IMG/VR virus record: IMGVR_UViG_3300005288_000105
Coordinates: 1-26,650 of that record
DNA: 26,650 bases
From: a virus
Direction: 5' to 3' (one strand)
Part shown: positions 4,840-25,956 of the stretch, one piece after another
Position numbering within the stretch: position 1 is the first letter of the stretch
Layout of the letters: each line of letters starts with the position of its first letter
Translations under genes and position numbers: made by a program
The notes under the pieces: model-generated
The model's input: only the letters and a program-made list of their open reading frames with translations
Database searches by the model: none
What the model was told of the DNA's origin: nothing

Positions 4840-5756
4840 GTTAGTTCCTCCGCTGCAATTTCCGAACACAACACTTCTGCGTACCAAGGATTACCACGGA
4901 AGTCTCCGTTGAATCGTGTAGCATTGATACGGTAGAAACCATTGATCACAGTGTCTTCGAGTTTAACGATGTGACCCGGAATCAACTCTGTGTTCAGAAG
5001 ACATACAAATTGGACACCACGACGACGACGTTTATCTTTTGGATGCTTACGCCCGTCTTCTGATGTATAAAAGGGTTCGTCGATTAGTCCAGTTTGAGGA
5101 CTAATAACCGGGGCAGAGTCTACGTCTTTAGTCAACAATCCGTTGACCTCAGAGACGTTCAGGACACCACCAGAGACGTTATATTCTAGATCGTAGGCAT
5201 CACACACCTTCTTCAACATTTCACGTGGTGTGCCTGTCAGGCGCCACCCATGAACGATTGGATTGTTTAGGTTGGTCCCTACGATGGAGCCACGGGCAAC
5301 ACCCGGCATTTGTGCGGCAATCTCATCAATAACATCTTGCACGGTCTTACCGGGAGACACCATATGTTTTAGTCTTTTGTGGTTAAGCTCTGTATAACCT
5401 TCCCCCATTTTGATCTGTGTGATGCGGTCGTCACCAGACCTACGTGTTGAAACATCAGTAACGTTTCCAGTTACGACAACGCGTGGTCCTTGTTCTTCGT
5501 ATCCAACCATCAGAGTGCATTCAAGGTACTCACCTTCGAGTAGAGCGGCTTGGCTCCGAGAGAGGTTATAGATTTCAATCGATGCACTGTTGCCTTTGGT
5601 CTTCTTGTTATCAGCCATTTTGGAAATGTCGAATGTGAGCTGAAGCCCTGCATTCATGAACCCTTGTTCATCTGGGATACCAGCGGTGATACGCAGGCCA
5701 TTACCATTGCTGTAGTCACCGATTCTTAGATCATAAACCCGTTCTCTCTGGAACAT
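4836..5756 (-). CDS. Baseplate hub protein
   Basis: A 306-residue protein placed directly before the spike gene, with a 4-base ATGA overlap. The N-terminal beta-rich half (LQLTFDISKMADNKK, then IEIYNLSR and LMVGYEEQ) and the middle segment VSPGKTVQDVIDEIAAQMPG, then REMLKKVCDAYDLEYNV, fit the T4 gp27/P2 gpD/Mu gp44 hub superfamily. These hubs form the trimeric ring that carries the spike and adapts the tube symmetry. The basic stretch KHPKDKRRRRGVQ is a loop before the final domain. Function is inferred from fold-like pattern and gene order. Confidence 0.8.
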   Translation of the reverse strand: MFQRERVYDLRIGDYSNGNGLRITAGIPDEQGFMNAGLQLTFDISKMADNKKTKGNSASIEIYNLSRSQAALLEGEYLECTLMVGYEEQGPRVVVTGNVTDVSTRRSGDDRITQIKMGEGYTELNHKRLKHMVSPGKTVQDVIDEIAAQMPGVARGSIVGTNLNNPIVHGWRLTGTPREMLKKVCDAYDLEYNVSGGVLNVSEVNGLLTKDVDSAPVISPQTGLIDEPFYTSEDGRKHPKDKRRRRGVQFVCLLNTELIPGHIVKLEDTVINGFYRINATRFNGDFRGNPWYAEVLCSEIAAEELT

Positions 5757-22793: not shown

Positions 22794-22830
22794 ATATGTT
22801 CCTCGGTAATTAATTAGGCCAGAACGGCAA

Positions 22831-22858
22831 AAGCCCCAACACGTGAATGTCGGGGCTT
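22831..22858 (-). terminator. Rho-independent terminator between tRNA island and esterase gene
   Basis: On the minus strand AAGCCCCGACA pairs with TGTTGGGGCTT (11 bp with one G-U) around a TTCACG loop, followed by TTGCC so that the RNA has CUUUU at the stem end. It would end the tRNA transcript about 90 bases after tRNA-Phe. Confidence 0.75.
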
Positions 22859-22949
22859 GCTTTCAGGATTATTCATCCTTAATAATGGCAGACAGACTTA
22901 GATTGATTGCACGAAGCAATGTCCGAGTGGATAAGTCGTCTGCGTCATT

Positions 22950-23025
22950 TGGTGCATACTCTTGGAATCGAACCAAGTCATCTGGGGTTTCAAGCCAGCG
23001 CTTCTACCAAGTTAGCTTAGAATGC
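22950..23025 (-). tRNA. tRNA-Phe(GAA)
   Basis: A 76-base cloverleaf with encoded CCA. The anticodon loop is TTGAAAC on a CTGGC/CCCAG stem with a C-C mismatch at the top. The T-arm is CTTGG-TTCGATT-CCAAG; the acceptor has one T-T mismatch. Last gene of the island. Confidence 0.88.
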
Positions 23026-23029
23026 AATT

Positions 23030-23103
23030 TGGTGCTTCTTGATGGAATCGAACCACCGTAGCCACCGTGTAAGGATGGCGTTCTACCATTAAACTAAAGA
23101 AGC
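23030..23103 (-). tRNA. tRNA-Val(TAC)
   Basis: A 74-base gene with CCA encoded. Acceptor GCTTCTT/AAGAAGC is perfect; the anticodon loop is CTTACAC on CCATC/GGTGG. Four bases separate it from tRNA-Phe, a gap typical of a shared precursor. Confidence 0.9.
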
Positions 23104-23107
23104 AAAT

Positions 23108-23183
23108 TGGTGCGGGATTAGGGAGTCGAACCCTAGTTCCTCGGGTGGAAGCCGAGAGTATTAGACCTCTATACGAATCACGC
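23108..23183 (-). tRNA. tRNA-Gly(TCC)
   Basis: A 76-base gene with CCA. The anticodon stem CTCGG/CCGAG carries the loop CTTCCAC. The acceptor GCGTGAT/ATCCCGC has one T-C mismatch. D and T arms are normal. Confidence 0.88.
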
Positions 23184-23188
23184 ATGTT

Positions 23189-23264
23189 TGGAGCCATCTA
23201 TGGGAGTCGAACCCATCTATTACTGGTTTGCAATCAGCACCCTAACCGCTCAGGCAAGAAGGAC
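23189..23264 (-). tRNA. tRNA-Cys(GCA), with a weak acceptor stem
   Basis: A 76-base gene: anticodon loop TTGCAAA, T73 as expected for cysteine, encoded CCA. The acceptor (GTCCTTC against AGATGGC) has only three Watson-Crick pairs plus two G-U pairs and two mismatches, and the anticodon stem has an A-C mismatch. It may be decayed or need host editing. Confidence 0.7.
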
Positions 23265-23271
23265 ATAAATT

Positions 23272-23345
23272 TGGTGGACCGTCAGGGAGTCAAACCCTGC
23301 CTTCCGCAGTGCAAGTGCGGCGAACTATCGAAATTCTTACAGCCC
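23272..23345 (-). tRNA. tRNA-Ala(TGC)
   Basis: A 74-base gene with CCA. Anticodon stem CCGCA/TGCGG, loop CTTGCAC. The acceptor GGGCTGT/ACGGTCC is complete but uses G-U pairs. The T-loop is TTTGACT, with T in place of the nearly invariant C56. Confidence 0.85.
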
Positions 23346-23349
23346 AAAT

Positions 23350-23424
23350 TGGTGTGAGGTGGAGATTCGAACTCCAACAACCGTTTCACAGACGGAAGTG
23401 CCAGCCAGTGGCAACGGCCTCACC
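23350..23424 (-). tRNA. tRNA-His(GTG), one acceptor pair short
   Basis: The anticodon loop CTGTGAA on a TCCGT/ACGGT stem gives His. The acceptor is GTGAGG/CCTCAC, six pairs instead of seven, the position before CCA is A instead of the histidine-specific C73, and the D-loop is very short. A G at 23424 could serve as the extra 5' G. Possibly functional, possibly decaying. Confidence 0.62.
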
Positions 23425-23562
23425 ATTGAATCTTGCCTTGCGGCTACATCGCGTTTGCTGCCAGTGGCTCTACTTAGCAAGTTCTTCACGAGGTTCGTAG
23501 CTGGTACGATGTTTCCAATCACTGCACGAATGCTTTCATGTATAACACCTTTTCAACAAAAT
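23425..23562. other. Spacer in the tRNA island, no gene seen
   Basis: 138 bases between tRNA-His and tRNA-Pro. The longest open frame on the minus strand would start at a GTG without a ribosome site and run through tRNA-His, so it is not supported. No complete tRNA fold was found. Confidence 0.5.
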
Positions 23563-23637
23563 TGGTCACGGGGGAGAATTTCGAAATCTCGACCTCTAGG
23601 TTCCAAACCCAGCTCTCTGCCTCTGAGATACCCCGAG
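23563..23637 (-). tRNA. tRNA-Pro(TGG)
   Basis: A 75-base gene with CCA, starting with C like bacterial proline tRNAs. The anticodon loop is TTTGGAA on CTGGG/CCTAG. The acceptor CTCGGGG/CCCCGTG has one T-T mismatch and the top T-stem pair is T-T. Confidence 0.85.
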
Positions 23638-23720
23638 TTGTATATTTGAACAACTGACTTCGCTCTGCATGCAGACTGTCGTCATCAACCACTAGCATAA
23701 CGTGCAGTGTTGTTCATAAT

Positions 23721-23805
23721 TGGTGGTTCATCTAGGACTCGAACCTAGGATGTATCGTTGTGCCGGGTTACAGCCGGTAGTCTTCGCCGCTCGACTCAAT
23801 GAACC
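23721..23805 (-). tRNA. tRNA-Tyr(GTA)
   Basis: An 85-base class II gene with a long variable arm, as usual for bacterial tyrosine tRNA. The acceptor GGTTCAT/ATGAACC is perfect, the anticodon loop is CTGTAAC and CCA is encoded. Confidence 0.92.
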
Positions 23806-23811
23806 ATTGTT

Positions 23812-23888
23812 TGGCTGGCACTATAGGACTCGAACCTATCATCTGCTGGTTAACAGCCAGCGACCCACGCCCGGTGAGATCAATGCCA
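23812..23888 (-). tRNA. tRNA-Asn(GTT)
   Basis: A 77-base gene with CCA and G73. Anticodon stem GCTGG/CCAGC, loop CTGTTAA; acceptor TGGCATT/AGTGCCA with one G-U pair. Confidence 0.92.
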
Positions 23889-23914
23889 ATGTAATTAGTC
23901 CATGGATTCATTAA

Positions 23915-23932
23915 AGTGAGCATGGCCTCACT
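23915..23932. other. Spacer hairpin (AGTGAG/CTCACT)
   Basis: A perfect 6-bp stem with a six-base loop in the 70-base spacer between tRNA-Asn and tRNA-Met. No U-run follows, so it is more likely a processing or stabilising hairpin than a terminator. Confidence 0.4.
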
Positions 23933-23958
23933 ACAACATGGGGAGCAACCCAGTGTTT

Positions 23959-24035
23959 TGGTTGCGGGTACAGGATTTGAACCTGTGGCATGAGGCTTAT
24001 GAAGCCCCTGTTCTACCAGACTGAACTAACCCGCA
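23959..24035 (-). tRNA. tRNA with CAT anticodon (Met, or Ile2 if modified)
   Basis: A 77-base gene with CCA. Acceptor TGCGGGT/ACCCGCA is perfect; the loop is TTCATAA on GGGGC/GCCTC. It lacks the initiator features (mismatched first pair, GGG/CCC stem), so it is an elongator Met or an Ile tRNA requiring lysidine at C34. Confidence 0.88.
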
Positions 24036-24041
24036 ATAATT

Positions 24042-24116
24042 TGGTTCCCGATGATTGATTCGAACAATCGACCTACCGCTTATCAAGCAGTTGCTCTACC
24101 GCTGAGCTAATCGGGA
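24042..24116 (-). tRNA. tRNA-Ile(GAT)
   Basis: A 75-base gene with CCA. Acceptor TCCCGAT/ATCGGGA is perfect, the D-arm is the standard AGCTCAGCGGTAGAGC and the anticodon loop is TTGATAA. Confidence 0.93.
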
Positions 24117-24121
24117 ATTAG

Positions 24122-24132
24122 GAGCTATAACG
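24122..24132 (-). repeat. Leftover tRNA 5' fragment in a spacer
   Basis: The 11 bases CGTTATAGCTC (minus strand) match the acceptor/D-arm junction of tRNA-Thr, which ends at 24274. No complete tRNA follows. It fits a relic of tRNA recombination or duplication. Confidence 0.45.
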
Positions 24133-24198
24133 TGCCCGAGACGAGAAACAGTTGTCAGATATCTGTGATCAACAGCCCACCAACAACATTCTATAATT

Positions 24199-24274
24199 TG
24201 GTGCCGTCACGAGGGATCGAACCCCGGACCTTCTGCTTACAAGGCAGTTGCTCTACCGACTGAGCTATAACGGC
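24199..24274 (-). tRNA. tRNA-Thr(TGT)
   Basis: A 76-base gene with CCA. Acceptor GCCGTTA/TGACGGC with one G-U, standard D-arm, anticodon loop CTTGTAA on an ACTGC/GCAGA stem with an A-A outer pair. Confidence 0.9.
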
Positions 24275-24434
24275 ATATGGCCCCTTACGGGTGGCCAGTC
24301 GGGCGATTTTACCTGCTGCTTGTAGCTTACCACAGCTACACGATTCTCGTACAGGCTTGAGCGCTTTCCCTTACCGAACTAGGAGGCGATTACTATTCAA
24401 TACCTTTCGGCGTTAGAATTCTCGGGTAACAATT
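24275..24434. other. Long spacer in the tRNA island, hairpins but no gene
   Basis: 160 bases between tRNA-Thr and tRNA-Asp. It contains a GTAA-tetraloop hairpin at about 24279-24296 on the minus strand (CCC/GGG core within GGCC arms) and a perfect 6-bp hairpin at 24322-24339 (GTAGCT/AGCTAC). No open frame with a ribosome site and no tRNA fold was found. Confidence 0.5.
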
Positions 24435-24510
24435 TGGCGACCATAATGGGATTCGAACCCACAGCGAACACATAGACAGTGTGCCTTCCTTCCCAGAGGA
24501 ATCTACAGCC
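24435..24510 (-). tRNA. tRNA-Asp(GTC)
   Basis: A 76-base gene with CCA and the expected G73. Loop CTGTCTA on GCACA/TGTGT. The acceptor GGCTGTA/TATGGTC has three G-U pairs, weaker than usual, but no mismatch. Confidence 0.87.
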
Positions 24511-24517
24511 ATTTGTT

Positions 24518-24594
24518 TGGTACTCTGCCGGGGACTCGAACCCCGTTCATGAGGGTGAAAACCTCATATCCTAAACCTCGTAGACGAGCAGAGC
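24518..24594 (-). tRNA. tRNA-Glu(TTC)
   Basis: A 77-base gene with CCA. Anticodon stem TGAGG/CCTCA, loop TTTTCAC; T-arm ACGGGG-type with TTCGAGT loop; acceptor GCTCTGC/GCAGAGT with one G-U. Confidence 0.9.
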
Positions 24595-24603
24595 ATTTGT
24601 TCT

Positions 24604-24726
24604 TTAGCGAACCACGCTTGGTGGCTTGCCAGCTTTGTTCTTGTTTGGGTGACGACCTTTGCTGTCTTTCAAGCGTGTCTTGTCCACCGGAGCATGTTCT
24701 TTGGTTGCATCGTAATACTTTGCCAT
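24604..24726 (-). CDS. Small basic protein inside the tRNA island (40 residues)
   Basis: An ORF of 40 codons: MAKYYDATKEHAPVDKTRLK, then a Lys/Asn/Gly/Pro-rich tail ending PPSVVR. An AAGGAG site lies 8 bases before the ATG, the clearest ribosome site in the island. The product is strongly basic with no cysteine or membrane segment, which suggests nucleic-acid binding or disorder. It sits between tRNA-Glu and tRNA-Arg(ACG), downstream of the internal promoter at 24849. I do not recognise a family. Confidence 0.7.
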   Translation of the reverse strand: MAKYYDATKEHAPVDKTRLKDSKGRHPNKNKAGKPPSVVR

Positions 24727-24753
24727 TTCATCTTCTCCTTTTTGTATAAAATT

Positions 24754-24828
24754 TGGTAGTGGGTGTAGGGATCGAACCTACCTAGCGGGCTTCGTAGACC
24801 CGAGCCTAATCCAATCGGCCAACTCACT
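24754..24828 (-). tRNA. tRNA-Arg(ACG)
   Basis: A 75-base gene with CCA. Anticodon stem CGGGT/GCCCG, loop CTACGAA; A34 is normally converted to inosine by host TadA. The acceptor AGTGAGT/ACCCACT has one A-C mismatch. It is the first tRNA after the internal promoter. Confidence 0.88.
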
Positions 24829-24848
24829 ATTGTCTTGCTTATGTCCCC

Positions 24849-24876
24849 ATTGTAAACGACAATCAGAAATTGTCAA
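24849..24876 (-). promoter_or_regulatory. Internal sigma70-type promoter in the tRNA island
   Basis: On the minus strand TTGACA (24871-24876), a 16-base spacer, TACAAT (24849-24854), then GGGGACATAAGC. The surrounding sequence is AT-rich. Transcription would begin about 15 bases before tRNA-Arg(ACG), so the left half of the island and the small ORF can be made independently. Confidence 0.82.
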
Positions 24877-24907
24877 GCACATTTTGAAAACATTTTAAAC
24901 TTTCTTC

Positions 24908-24986
24908 TGGTAGATGTGACAGGACTTGAACCTGCATTGCCTCCAGTTACGCTCTACCGCTTAGAAGGCGGCTACGGTACACATCT
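24908..24986 (-). tRNA. tRNA-like gene with Arg(TCT) anticodon, D-arm apparently lost
   Basis: A 79-base unit with a perfect acceptor (AGATGTG/CACATCT), good T-arm (GCAGG-TTCAAGT-CCTGT) and CCA. The only convincing anticodon arm is GCCGC-CTTCTAA-GCGGT. That leaves just seven bases for the D region and about 20 for the variable region, so it is not a normal cloverleaf. It may be rearranged, decayed or a truly D-armless tRNA. Confidence 0.6.
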
Positions 24987-24992
24987 ATAAAT

Positions 24993-25070
24993 TGGCGGGC
25001 CAGCTAGGAATCGAACCCAGTCCGCAAGGATTTGGAATCCCGCATGCATTTGCCATAACAACCCAGACCC
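24993..25070 (-). tRNA. tRNA-Trp(CCA)
   Basis: A 78-base gene with encoded CCA and G73, the tryptophan discriminator. Anticodon loop TTCCAAA. The acceptor GGGTCTG/CTGGCCC has one T-T mismatch and the anticodon stem is weak at its outer end. Confidence 0.83.
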
Positions 25071-25110
25071 TTAATTAGCGATGAAGTTTAATGTCGATCA
25101 TCACGACAGA

Positions 25111-25131
25111 CTCTAGAGTTGGTTTCTAGAG
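25111..25131. other. Spacer hairpin (CTCTAGA/TCTAGAG)
   Basis: A perfect 7-bp stem with a seven-base loop in the spacer between tRNA-Gln and tRNA-Trp. No U-run follows. Size resembles a tRNA anticodon arm, but no cloverleaf surrounds it. Confidence 0.4.
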
Positions 25132-25153
25132 AACCCCAAGGCGCGAGGTATTC

Positions 25154-25229
25154 TGGAAGAGGGAGTGAGACTCGAACTCACAAATGCTGGATTCAAAGTC
25201 CAGTGCGTCTACCATTCCGCCACCCCTCA
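25154..25229 (-). tRNA. tRNA-Gln(TTG)
   Basis: A 76-base gene with CCA. Anticodon stem CTGGA/TCCAG, loop CTTTGAA. The first acceptor pair is T-T, in line with the weak first pair of Gln tRNAs. The D-arm (GGCGGAATGGTAGACGC) resembles leucine tRNAs, but the variable loop is short. Confidence 0.85.
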
Positions 25230-25319
25230 ATTATTAGTACCGGAAGATGTCCAACTGACTAGTATCGTCTTCGTCTTCCTGTTGAGCTTACCTTGCTTGC
25301 CCATGTGCTACCCGCATTC

Positions 25320-25355
25320 GCAGATATGGGGAATCGAACCCCCACAAGTTATCTC
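25320..25355 (-). pseudogene. tRNA remnant: acceptor-like stem plus T-arm only
   Basis: A T-arm-like hairpin with TTCGATT loop on GGGG/CCCC (25327-25344) is flanked by AGATA/TATCT, an acceptor-like stem, with no D or anticodon arm between and no CCA. It looks like a tRNA from which the middle was deleted. Confidence 0.5.
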
Positions 25356-25360
25356 ACATT

Positions 25361-25437
25361 TGGTGCCCCCACTGAGATTCGAACTCAGACTGAACGGTTT
25401 CTAAAACCGCTTCCTCTGCCAGTTGGGATACAGGGGC
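25361..25437 (-). tRNA. tRNA-Leu(TAG) with a short variable loop
   Basis: A 77-base gene with CCA and A73. Acceptor GCCCCTG/TGGGGGC; anticodon stem GCGGT/ACCGT, loop TTTAGAA. The anticodon reads CUA. The variable loop has about five bases, whereas bacterial leucine tRNAs are class II. The amino acid could be questioned for this reason. Confidence 0.82.
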
Positions 25438-25444
25438 TTTTGTA

Positions 25445-25521
25445 TGGTGGCTTATCAGGGATTCGAACCCCGAACATCTTGTGTTTGAAACAAGCACGAC
25501 TGCCAGTTGCGTCAATAAGCC
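25445..25521 (-). tRNA. tRNA-Leu(CAA) with a short variable loop
   Basis: A 77-base gene with CCA and A73. Acceptor GGCTTAT/ATAAGCC and anticodon stem CTTGT/ACAAG are perfect; loop TTCAAAC. Like its neighbour it is class I in shape, with the same AACTGGCA D-loop, so the pair may share an origin. Confidence 0.85.
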
Positions 25522-25528
25522 ATTTGTT

Positions 25529-25620
25529 TGGAGGCGAGTGTGGGATTCGAACCCACGGGGCCATTGCTGACCCGTCTGCTTTCTAGGCAGATGTAATAAG
25601 CCGGACTCTACCAACTCGCC
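25529..25620 (-). tRNA. tRNA-Ser(AGA)
   Basis: A 92-base class II gene with a long variable arm. Acceptor GGCGAGT/ACTCGCC is perfect; anticodon stem TCTGC/GCAGA, loop CTAGAAA. A34 is rare outside Arg(ACG) in bacteria, and T73 replaces the usual serine G73. Confidence 0.85.
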
Positions 25621-25743
25621 ATAATTCTTAAGGTTCAACTTGGGACTTATACCCCTGCCGGACTAACGCAACATTCCGAGTGCAACCCAGCCGCGAACCC
25701 TCACGCTGATGCAGTTTTCTTCCTGTGAGCGACACAGGCATTC
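25621..25743. other. Spacer in the tRNA island, no gene seen
   Basis: 123 bases between the two serine tRNAs. It holds GCCGGACT, also found in the D-arm of tRNA-Ser(AGA), and a loose CTCAC/GTGAG pair. It might contain a decayed tRNA, but no fold is convincing. Confidence 0.4.
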
Positions 25744-25833
25744 TGGCAGTGGATGAAGGATTCGAACCTTCGGGACTGTTACATCCTACAGGTTAGCAAC
25801 CTGCTGCAATCGGCCTGACTCTGCCAATCCACT
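25744..25833 (-). tRNA. tRNA-Ser(GCT)
   Basis: A 90-base class II gene with G73 and CCA. Acceptor AGTGGAT/ATCCACT is perfect; anticodon loop TTGCTAA on GCAGG/CCTGT; long variable arm. Confidence 0.92.
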
Positions 25834-25838
25834 ATGTT

Positions 25839-25915
25839 TGGTGAAACGCCTTGGAATCGAACCAAGTTAATACAGGTTAAAAGCCTGTTGCCTAGCGCCG
25901 GTCGGCCAACGTCTC
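25839..25915 (-). tRNA. tRNA-Lys(TTT)
   Basis: A 77-base gene with CCA. Anticodon stem ACAGG/CCTGT, loop CTTTTAA; acceptor GAGACGT/GCGTTTC with two G-U pairs. It is the first gene of the island and begins only a few bases after the expected transcription start. Confidence 0.92.
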
Positions 25916-25928
25916 AATTTGTTTGGTC

Positions 25929-25956
25929 ATTCTACACGTTTTTGAATTCGTGTCAA
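25929..25956 (-). promoter_or_regulatory. Sigma70-type promoter for the tRNA island
   Basis: On the minus strand TTGACA (25951-25956), a 16-base spacer, TAGAAT (25929-25934), then GACCAAAC. The -35 box overlaps the stop codon of the preceding gene, and transcription should start about seven bases before tRNA-Lys. It shares the -10 box and following GACCA with the promoter at 26401. Confidence 0.87.

Follow-up and report, generated by a model that had tools for sequence, protein, structure and literature searches.

Why phages carry tRNA genes is a long-standing question, and it is raised again by a dense island of 23 such genes on the minus strand of the virus record IMGVR_UViG_3300005288_000105 in IMG/VR, of which a stretch of 26,650 nucleotides (positions 1 to 26,650 of the record, here called the window) was analysed. 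An earlier note, made from the letters of the DNA, had placed the island at 22950-25915, and had proposed that its anticodons cover all 20 amino acids and that the phage can largely replace the tRNAs of its host. In this study the 23 genes were confirmed, a full set was found to be characteristic of the phage lineage, and codon use was found to follow the anticodons that each phage carries; in addition, one of the genes, a tRNA-Arg(UCU), proved to belong to a family with a conserved and covarying structure that is not a cloverleaf. Taking the whole together, it is probable that the island provides a decoding set of the phage's own by which its late genes are read, with the Arg(UCU) gene as a working non-cloverleaf tRNA within it.

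Identification of the tRNA genes

All 23 genes were found at the coordinates and on the strand of the earlier list, and every one of them (23/23) ends in an encoded CCA, as was read directly from the sequence. They serve 20 amino acids, of which Leu, Ser and Arg have two genes apiece and the others a single one; this coverage was established with ARAGORN, Rfam and covariance models built from relatives only. ARAGORN at its default setting, which the earlier note had named as a check, called 19 of the 23 and missed Asp, His, Trp and Arg-TCT. With a relaxed threshold (-ps85) the first three were gained, and the Arg gene was called as 'Arg gcg'. Against the Rfam model RF00005, which has a gathering threshold of 29 bits, 21 genes exceeded the gathering score and Trp, at 23.2 bits, fell below it. 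For the two weakest genes, models were built from the aligned same slot in relatives, with the window excluded: His (23351-23424) scored 89.6 bits (E 2.5e-21) against model R1, made from 11 relatives, and Trp (24993-25070) scored 88.0 bits (E 5.3e-20) against model R2, made from 13. Cys, His and Trp, the single-copy genes on which the earlier note had staked its reading, were none of them rejected by covariance models, and Cys, at 31.2 bits, lay just over the cut-off.

Dinucleotide shuffles of the window array gave 0.0 ARAGORN calls on the strand at the default setting and 0.14 at the relaxed one. The chance of reaching 20 amino acids in 23 random draws is about 7.5e-6 if the draws are uniform, and 3.6e-5 if distinct anticodons are drawn from a pool like that of E. 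coli. RNAfold, applied to single sequences, recovered cloverleaves unreliably even for clear tRNAs and was set aside. Two of the earlier assignments had to be revised. The gene read as 'Arg(TCT)-like' is present and is an Arg(UCU) gene, but it does not form a cloverleaf, there being no D hairpin. The CAT gene, left as Met/Ile2, was confirmed as a gene and is most likely Met, since AUA is all but unused in phages that have only one CAT gene; the coverage of all 20 amino acids in the window depends on this assignment, which is drawn from the near-absence of AUA.

Completeness in related phages

The proteins of the window make up the module of a contractile-tail phage (terminase, portal, capsid, sheath, tape measure, baseplate and lipase, from PHROG), and 187 Pseudomonas phage records match its DNA, the top ones being of Otagovirus type at about 73-75% identity. 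The window is part of an Otagovirus-like phage genome, with a similar structural module, the tRNA array beside terminase and lipase, and its place in a tree of four core proteins; genomes of this phage group measure about 92-102 kb.

The lineage comparison comprised 25 arrays, those of the window and of 24 relatives. With default ARAGORN between 12 and 19 amino acids are represented per array and none of the 25 reaches 20, while with the relaxed threshold all 20 are found in 17 arrays and 19 in six others. A separate scan for T arm and CCA recovered His in Bitten, Trp in 254 and Ser-TGA in Boevelstad, which indicates that some of the leftover gaps are gaps of detection. Gene order is largely conserved among related arrays; in the Pakpunavirus PaP1, which is more distant, the relaxed threshold gives 18 amino acids. 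The full tRNA set is a trait of the lineage that annotation has hidden. Phage phiPsa374 was published with 11 tRNAs, and gain and loss of tRNAs have been described (PMC9796965); because most arrays hold 20 isotypes on re-scanning, much of the apparent turnover is an effect of the gene finder. As standard gene finders hide complete sets, tRNA counts in phages and statements about gain and loss need to be re-examined. It also follows that a set spanning every amino acid, which the earlier note had called uncommon, is less unusual than was claimed, being the rule in this phage group and having a precedent in XacN1.

Codon use and phage anticodons

The anticodons of the window come close to one per codon box. 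By ordinary wobble rules the set reads UUA, AUA, UCA and CGG poorly, and the window genes use the first three of these sparingly, with 8 UUA among 562 Leu codons, 9 AUA among 458 Ile codons and 11 UCA among 428 Ser codons, unlike other A-ending codons, which are common. Since relatives differ in just those anticodons, it was possible to test whether codon use tracks them. About 20 kb of structural genes from the 24 relatives were used, together with the tree from four core proteins and phylogenetic generalised least squares (PGLS).

UCA forms 16-35% of UCN codons in phages with Ser-TGA (IMG34127 excepted) and 0.8-5.6% in phages with Ser-AGA, the medians being 20.6% with Ser-TGA and 2.3% without it (PGLS p 7.5e-5). 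UUA forms 33-45% of UUR codons in four phages with Leu-TAA as against 0-10% in the others (41% vs 1.9%; PGLS p 4e-6), CAA being the alternative anticodon. Likewise, AUA use reaches 16-19% in the three phages that carry a second CAT gene, as against 0-5% in the others (18% vs 0.7%; PGLS p 0.026). Five other A-ending codon families, taken as controls, gave no significant PGLS effect. The codon use of the structural genes tracks the anticodons that each phage itself carries, and the AUA result implies that a single CAT gene is Met and the second Ile2. Close relatives whose sets differ by a single anticodon or tRNA, with codon use following, constitute a natural experiment.

A block Ser(TGA)-CAT-Leu(TAA) is found in 16Q, Y1-MI and PHB09 (L018 4003-4260, L020 4258-4961 and L029 about 5300-5410), and in these three phages the use of UCA, UUA, AUA and AGR is elevated. 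The Ser gene of the window at 25529-25620 has the anticodon AGA, with A34, where some relatives have TGA. Phages with AGA have UCU as the dominant codon and avoid UCA, and for this reason A34 is perhaps not read as inosine.

Structure and distribution of the Arg(UCU) family

The Arg(UCU) gene (24908-24986) consists of a 7-bp acceptor stem, a 7-nt connector, the anticodon arm, a linker, the stretch UAACUGGA, the T arm and CCA. Its acceptor, anticodon and T arms are good, and it scores 38.3 bits against RF00005 at 24911-24986, over the threshold of 29. It fails as a cloverleaf, since the connector of 7-8 nt found across the family makes a D hairpin impossible. A D-loop-like strand, UAAYUGGA, sits 3' of the anticodon arm, in a region of 19-23 nt between the anticodon and T arms, and the 5' connector pairs with the bases directly before this strand to form a 3-bp helix. 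In an alignment of 37 sequences (A3) pairing in the helix reaches 96.4%, double changes occur at 3/3 pairs, and the variants include CUC/GAG, CUU/AAG, CGG/CCG, CGC/GCG, CCC/GGG and others; a fourth pair (columns 15:40) was unsupported, being unpaired in 31 of the 37. Over the whole alignment 98.1% of cells are paired, and covariation is 0.804 as against at most 0.152 when slid. The stems show the compensatory change that would be looked for in a functional tRNA-Arg. A model of the family (R3) gave the window gene 82.3 bits, the window being part of its training set, and a member outside the training set 61.3 bits, compared with at most 40 for canonical tRNAs.

The same gene is present, unannotated, in ventosus, UAVern, Bitten, Y1-MI, phiPsa397, Kassivere and four other Pseudomonas putida phages, PAK_P2 and JG003, and more distant relatives occur in Justusliebigvirus, in Streptomyces phages and in Bas94. 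Exact patterns of the window gene matched nothing in IMG/VR, and general patterns were therefore used; two of these, which leave the acceptor stem, anticodon stem and connector unconstrained, gave 37 contigs, nearly all of them with complete acceptor pairing. Default ARAGORN overlaps one of the 37 genes. BLAST with one query matched 268 phage records, including 121Q, Felixounavirus and Klebsiella phages, and further matches were found in nine PA11-like and 14 Pseudomonas records, which brings the family to about 290 phage records altogether. In the matched records the gene is mostly unannotated, or labelled tRNA-OTHER, tRNA-Leu or HNH. Two BLAST queries matched none of 5,426 E. coli genomes, and the family was likewise not found in 72,556 plasmids. 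The family is apparently phage-specific, the bacterial chromosomes compared being those of E. coli.

HNH endonuclease genes adjoin the Arg gene in phiPsa397 and PAK_P2 and lie near it in Bitten (loci L299 2603-3060, L026 3672-4131 and L011 3690-4350 have an HNH gene next to or near it), and such neighbours may help the gene to move. The idea that HNH genes carry the Arg gene in general was discarded, since a similarity comparison with these three proteins showed none next to the family members from IMG/VR. Among the Felixounavirus and PA11-like records there are some in which the Arg match itself bears the name HNH.

Function of the Arg(UCU) gene

The arginyl-tRNA synthetase (ArgRS) of E. coli recognises its tRNAs by A20, C35, U/C36 and A/G73 (PMC9976931). 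The family keeps C35 and U36, and N73 is mostly A or G. An A stands directly after GG in the relocated loop, also in the members found by BLAST, and could be the equivalent of A20. In phiPsa397 the non-cloverleaf gene fills the slot that is held by a canonical Arg-UCU gene in psageK4, a phage of the same species according to GenBank, and AGR use is equal in the two (22-23%). In Y1-MI and Kassivere AGR accounts for 47-51% of Arg codons, and the non-cloverleaf gene is the only Arg-UCU gene detected. Since the ArgRS determinants appear to be kept, the canonical slot is filled and AGR use is sustained, it is likely that the gene works as a tRNA.

That the window gene is a one-off wreck was ruled out by the existence of a family with the same architecture. 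More generally, it might be taken for a decaying or recombined pseudo-tRNA, in which case the true set would hold one Arg gene fewer; it is after all the sole non-cloverleaf among the 23 genes, and relaxed ARAGORN gives it a wrong anticodon. With the architecture recurring, stems covarying, across the phage records listed above, and with the gene standing where a canonical one would, this seems very improbable. It is also rather unlikely, if less so, that the family consists of tRNA mimics that act as decoys for anticodon nucleases or as regulators and do not decode. A core that departs from the cloverleaf would suit such a role, as would the solitary position of some members, far from other tRNAs, and the lack of an encoded CCA in about half of them; yet the members retain acceptor, T arm and anticodon loop and, it appears, the ArgRS determinants as well, and the AGR-rich phages Y1-MI and Kassivere have no other Arg-UCU gene that was detected.

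On balance we lean towards the view that Pseudomonas, enterobacterial and Streptomyces phages, jumbo phages included, share a hidden class of tRNA-Arg(UCU) that is functional and has its core re-ordered; it would be charged by host ArgRS, used by the ribosome and, in the window, complete the private set. If its members are indeed charged and used, they would represent a tRNA topology that we have not found described, available in isolates such as 121Q and the Felixounavirus phages. The literature on unusual or D-armless tRNAs, as far as it was covered, deals mainly with mitochondrial or engineered molecules and contains no description of this family; that coverage is incomplete and priority is uncertain.

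Arrangement of the array

All features of the array lie on the minus strand and are given in the direction of that strand, with Rfam scores in bits; unless stated otherwise, the genes were called by ARAGORN. A sigma70-like promoter (TTGACA-16-TAGAAT, 25929-25956, 11/12 matches in a consensus scan) lies directly upstream of the first gene, Lys(TTT) (25839-25915, 46.0). There follow Ser(GCT) (25744-25833, 51.6), Ser(AGA) (51.2), Leu(CAA) (25445-25521, 51.8), Leu(TAG) (25361-25437, 48.6), Gln(TTG) (25154-25229, 57.0), Trp(CCA), which default tools miss and which was identified with model R2, and the non-cloverleaf Arg(UCU), identified by its Rfam score, alignment A3 with its covariation, and model R3. 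A second sigma70-like promoter (TTGACA-16-TACAAT, 24849-24876, likewise 11/12) stands upstream of Arg(ACG) (24754-24828, 44.4). A small open reading frame (MAKYYDATKEHAPVDKTRLKDSKGRHPNKNKAGKPPSVVR, 24604-24726) comes next, read from the sequence; relatives annotate a coding sequence of 126-138 bp between Glu and Arg at this place. Beyond it are Glu(TTC) (24518-24594, 46.1), Asp(GTC) (24435-24510, 37.3, called by relaxed ARAGORN), Thr(TGT) (24199-24274, 68.0), Ile(GAT) (24042-24116, 66.5), Met(CAT) (23959-24035, 67.4), most likely the elongator and not Ile2 given AUA use, Asn(GTT) (23812-23888, 36.9), Tyr(GTA) (23721-23805, 45.0), Pro(TGG) (23563-23637, 44.7) and His(GTG), also missed by default tools and identified with model R1. 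The last five genes are Ala(TGC) (23272-23345, 41.6), Cys(GCA) (23189-23263; relatives have the same anticodon in the same slot), Gly(TCC) (23108-23183, 52.0), Val(TAC) (23030-23103, 65.7) and Phe(GAA) (22950-23025, 47.4). Past the last gene, at 22825-22870, there is a terminator-like hairpin (AGCCCCGACA...TGTTGGGGCTTTT), with too few T for the terminator scan. Spacers of 120-160 nt within the array (25621-25743 and 24275-24434) contain tRNA-like fragments in the form of stretches resembling T arms.

Both Leu genes (25361-25521) are of class I, about 77 nt long, with a short variable arm in place of a long one. Short class-I tRNA-Leu occurs also in Felixounavirus, mycobacteriophages and Lactobacillus and Enterococcus phages; that it is a phage invention was rejected, as the same type is the chromosomal tRNA-Leu(UAA) across Actinomycetota. 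In the window and in 11 relatives the acceptor stem of tRNA-His measures 6 bp, combined with either G-1 and A73 or C73 and no G-1. The usual bacterial tRNA-His has G-1:C73.

Role of the island

The proposal that the phage largely replaces host tRNAs receives indirect support from a nearly non-redundant set, from its conservation in the lineage and from codon use that tracks the phage's own anticodons. Hosts possess tRNAs for UCA, UUA and AUA, and phages that lack the matching tRNA avoid these codons in their late genes. We suggest that the island is transcribed as a single unit and equips the phage with a nearly complete decoding set of its own, and that late in infection phage genes would be read mainly by its tRNAs. 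In our judgement, host tRNAs most likely become insufficient during infection and the island supplies the late translation pool; reading of late genes by the island set would account for the retention of every isotype in the group and for codon use that follows the anticodons carried. The Arg(UCU) product would be a working non-cloverleaf tRNA, with the D-loop-like strand, its GG and its A20 equivalent between the anticodon and T arms and the 3-bp helix extending below the anticodon arm, and host ArgRS could charge it through A20 and C35/U36. The cause put forward in the earlier note, that host tRNAs are cut as a defence, is one candidate; the data agree as well with a breakdown of host machinery, or with simple codon compensation in the case of some genes.

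The main hypotheses on phage tRNAs are already published (PMC10264068, PMC11555353). Codon compensation, the most widely accepted of them (PMC10264068), would have the tRNAs top up host-rare codons while the host pool is used throughout, so that the set is an accumulation of useful genes. UCA, UUA and AUA are indeed host-rare and become more frequent in phages that have the tRNA for them, and compensation alone can explain these members of the set, but not the tRNAs retained for codons that Pseudomonas hosts read well (Phe, Asp, Asn, Tyr, His, Cys, Met, Trp and Ile-GAT), nor a retention that is nearly non-redundant and group-wide. As a full account of the island it is doubtful. About equally doubtful is the view that tRNA cutting or disabling by hosts is the reason for the set, with its altered members, the D-armless Arg, the short-armed Leu and the His with a 6-bp acceptor stem, resisting such enzymes. 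Phage tRNAs are known with changes in the anticodon loop (PMC10264068) and others evade retrons (PMC11555353), and the core of Arg(UCU) is strongly altered around a standard anticodon loop; however, the structural changes sit in the core, outside the anticodon loop.

Several observations weigh against a private decoding set that includes a working Arg(UCU). Completeness across the lineage depends on the relaxed ARAGORN threshold. The independent switches behind the codon comparisons are few, about four for UCA, three for UUA and two for AUA by reading of the tree. IMG34127 (L273), the sister of the window and its closest full-length relative (MCP 93% identical), has Ser-TGA and yet uses UCA at 4.9%; perhaps its anticodon switch is recent and codon use lags behind. 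In phages with a second CAT gene AGR codons rise too, and no new Arg tRNA was seen there. As regards the Arg family, the missing CCA in about half of the genes belongs here, as does the fact that CTTCTAA, GGA and some of the T arm were demanded by the two gathering patterns, whereby conservation at these positions partly reflects how members were selected; the stems were unselected.

Comparison with known systems

The array resembles those of Otagovirus phages (phiPsa374, psageK4, VCM and UNO-G1W1) in strand, in a mostly identical gene order and in its flanks of lipase/terminase and a small hypothetical gene. Publications or annotations credit those arrays with about 11-23 tRNAs and speak of tRNA gain and loss, whereas most hold 20 isotypes on re-scanning. 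The Leu tRNAs of other Otagoviruses, VCM for example, measure 85-87 nt as against about 77 nt in the window. Large sets are known from XacN1, with 56 tRNAs for all 20 amino acids (PMC5852040), from Sf14, with 26 tRNAs for 19 amino acids (PMC12482277), and from vibriophage 2.275.O (Yang et al. 2021, as cited in PMC12482277). These near-complete sets are likewise thought to keep translation going when host tRNAs fail; the set of the window differs in being small and almost non-redundant, and here codon use could be tested across switches of anticodon.

The Arg(UCU) family shares with canonical bacterial and phage tRNA-Arg(UCU) the loop CUUCUAA, the 7-bp acceptor stem, the T arm, the A after GG and the slot in the array, and differs from them in having 7-8 nt between acceptor and anticodon arm and 19-23 nt between the anticodon and T arms. 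Like the D-armless tRNA-Ser of metazoan mitochondria (PMC4013460, PMC9427863), it has lost the D hairpin and kept the acceptor, the anticodon and other core elements. Unlike the mitochondrial molecules, the Arg(UCU) genes belong to phage genomes and to the bacterial cytoplasm, and they retain a D-loop-like strand, which has moved to the 3' side of the anticodon arm and follows a covarying helix.

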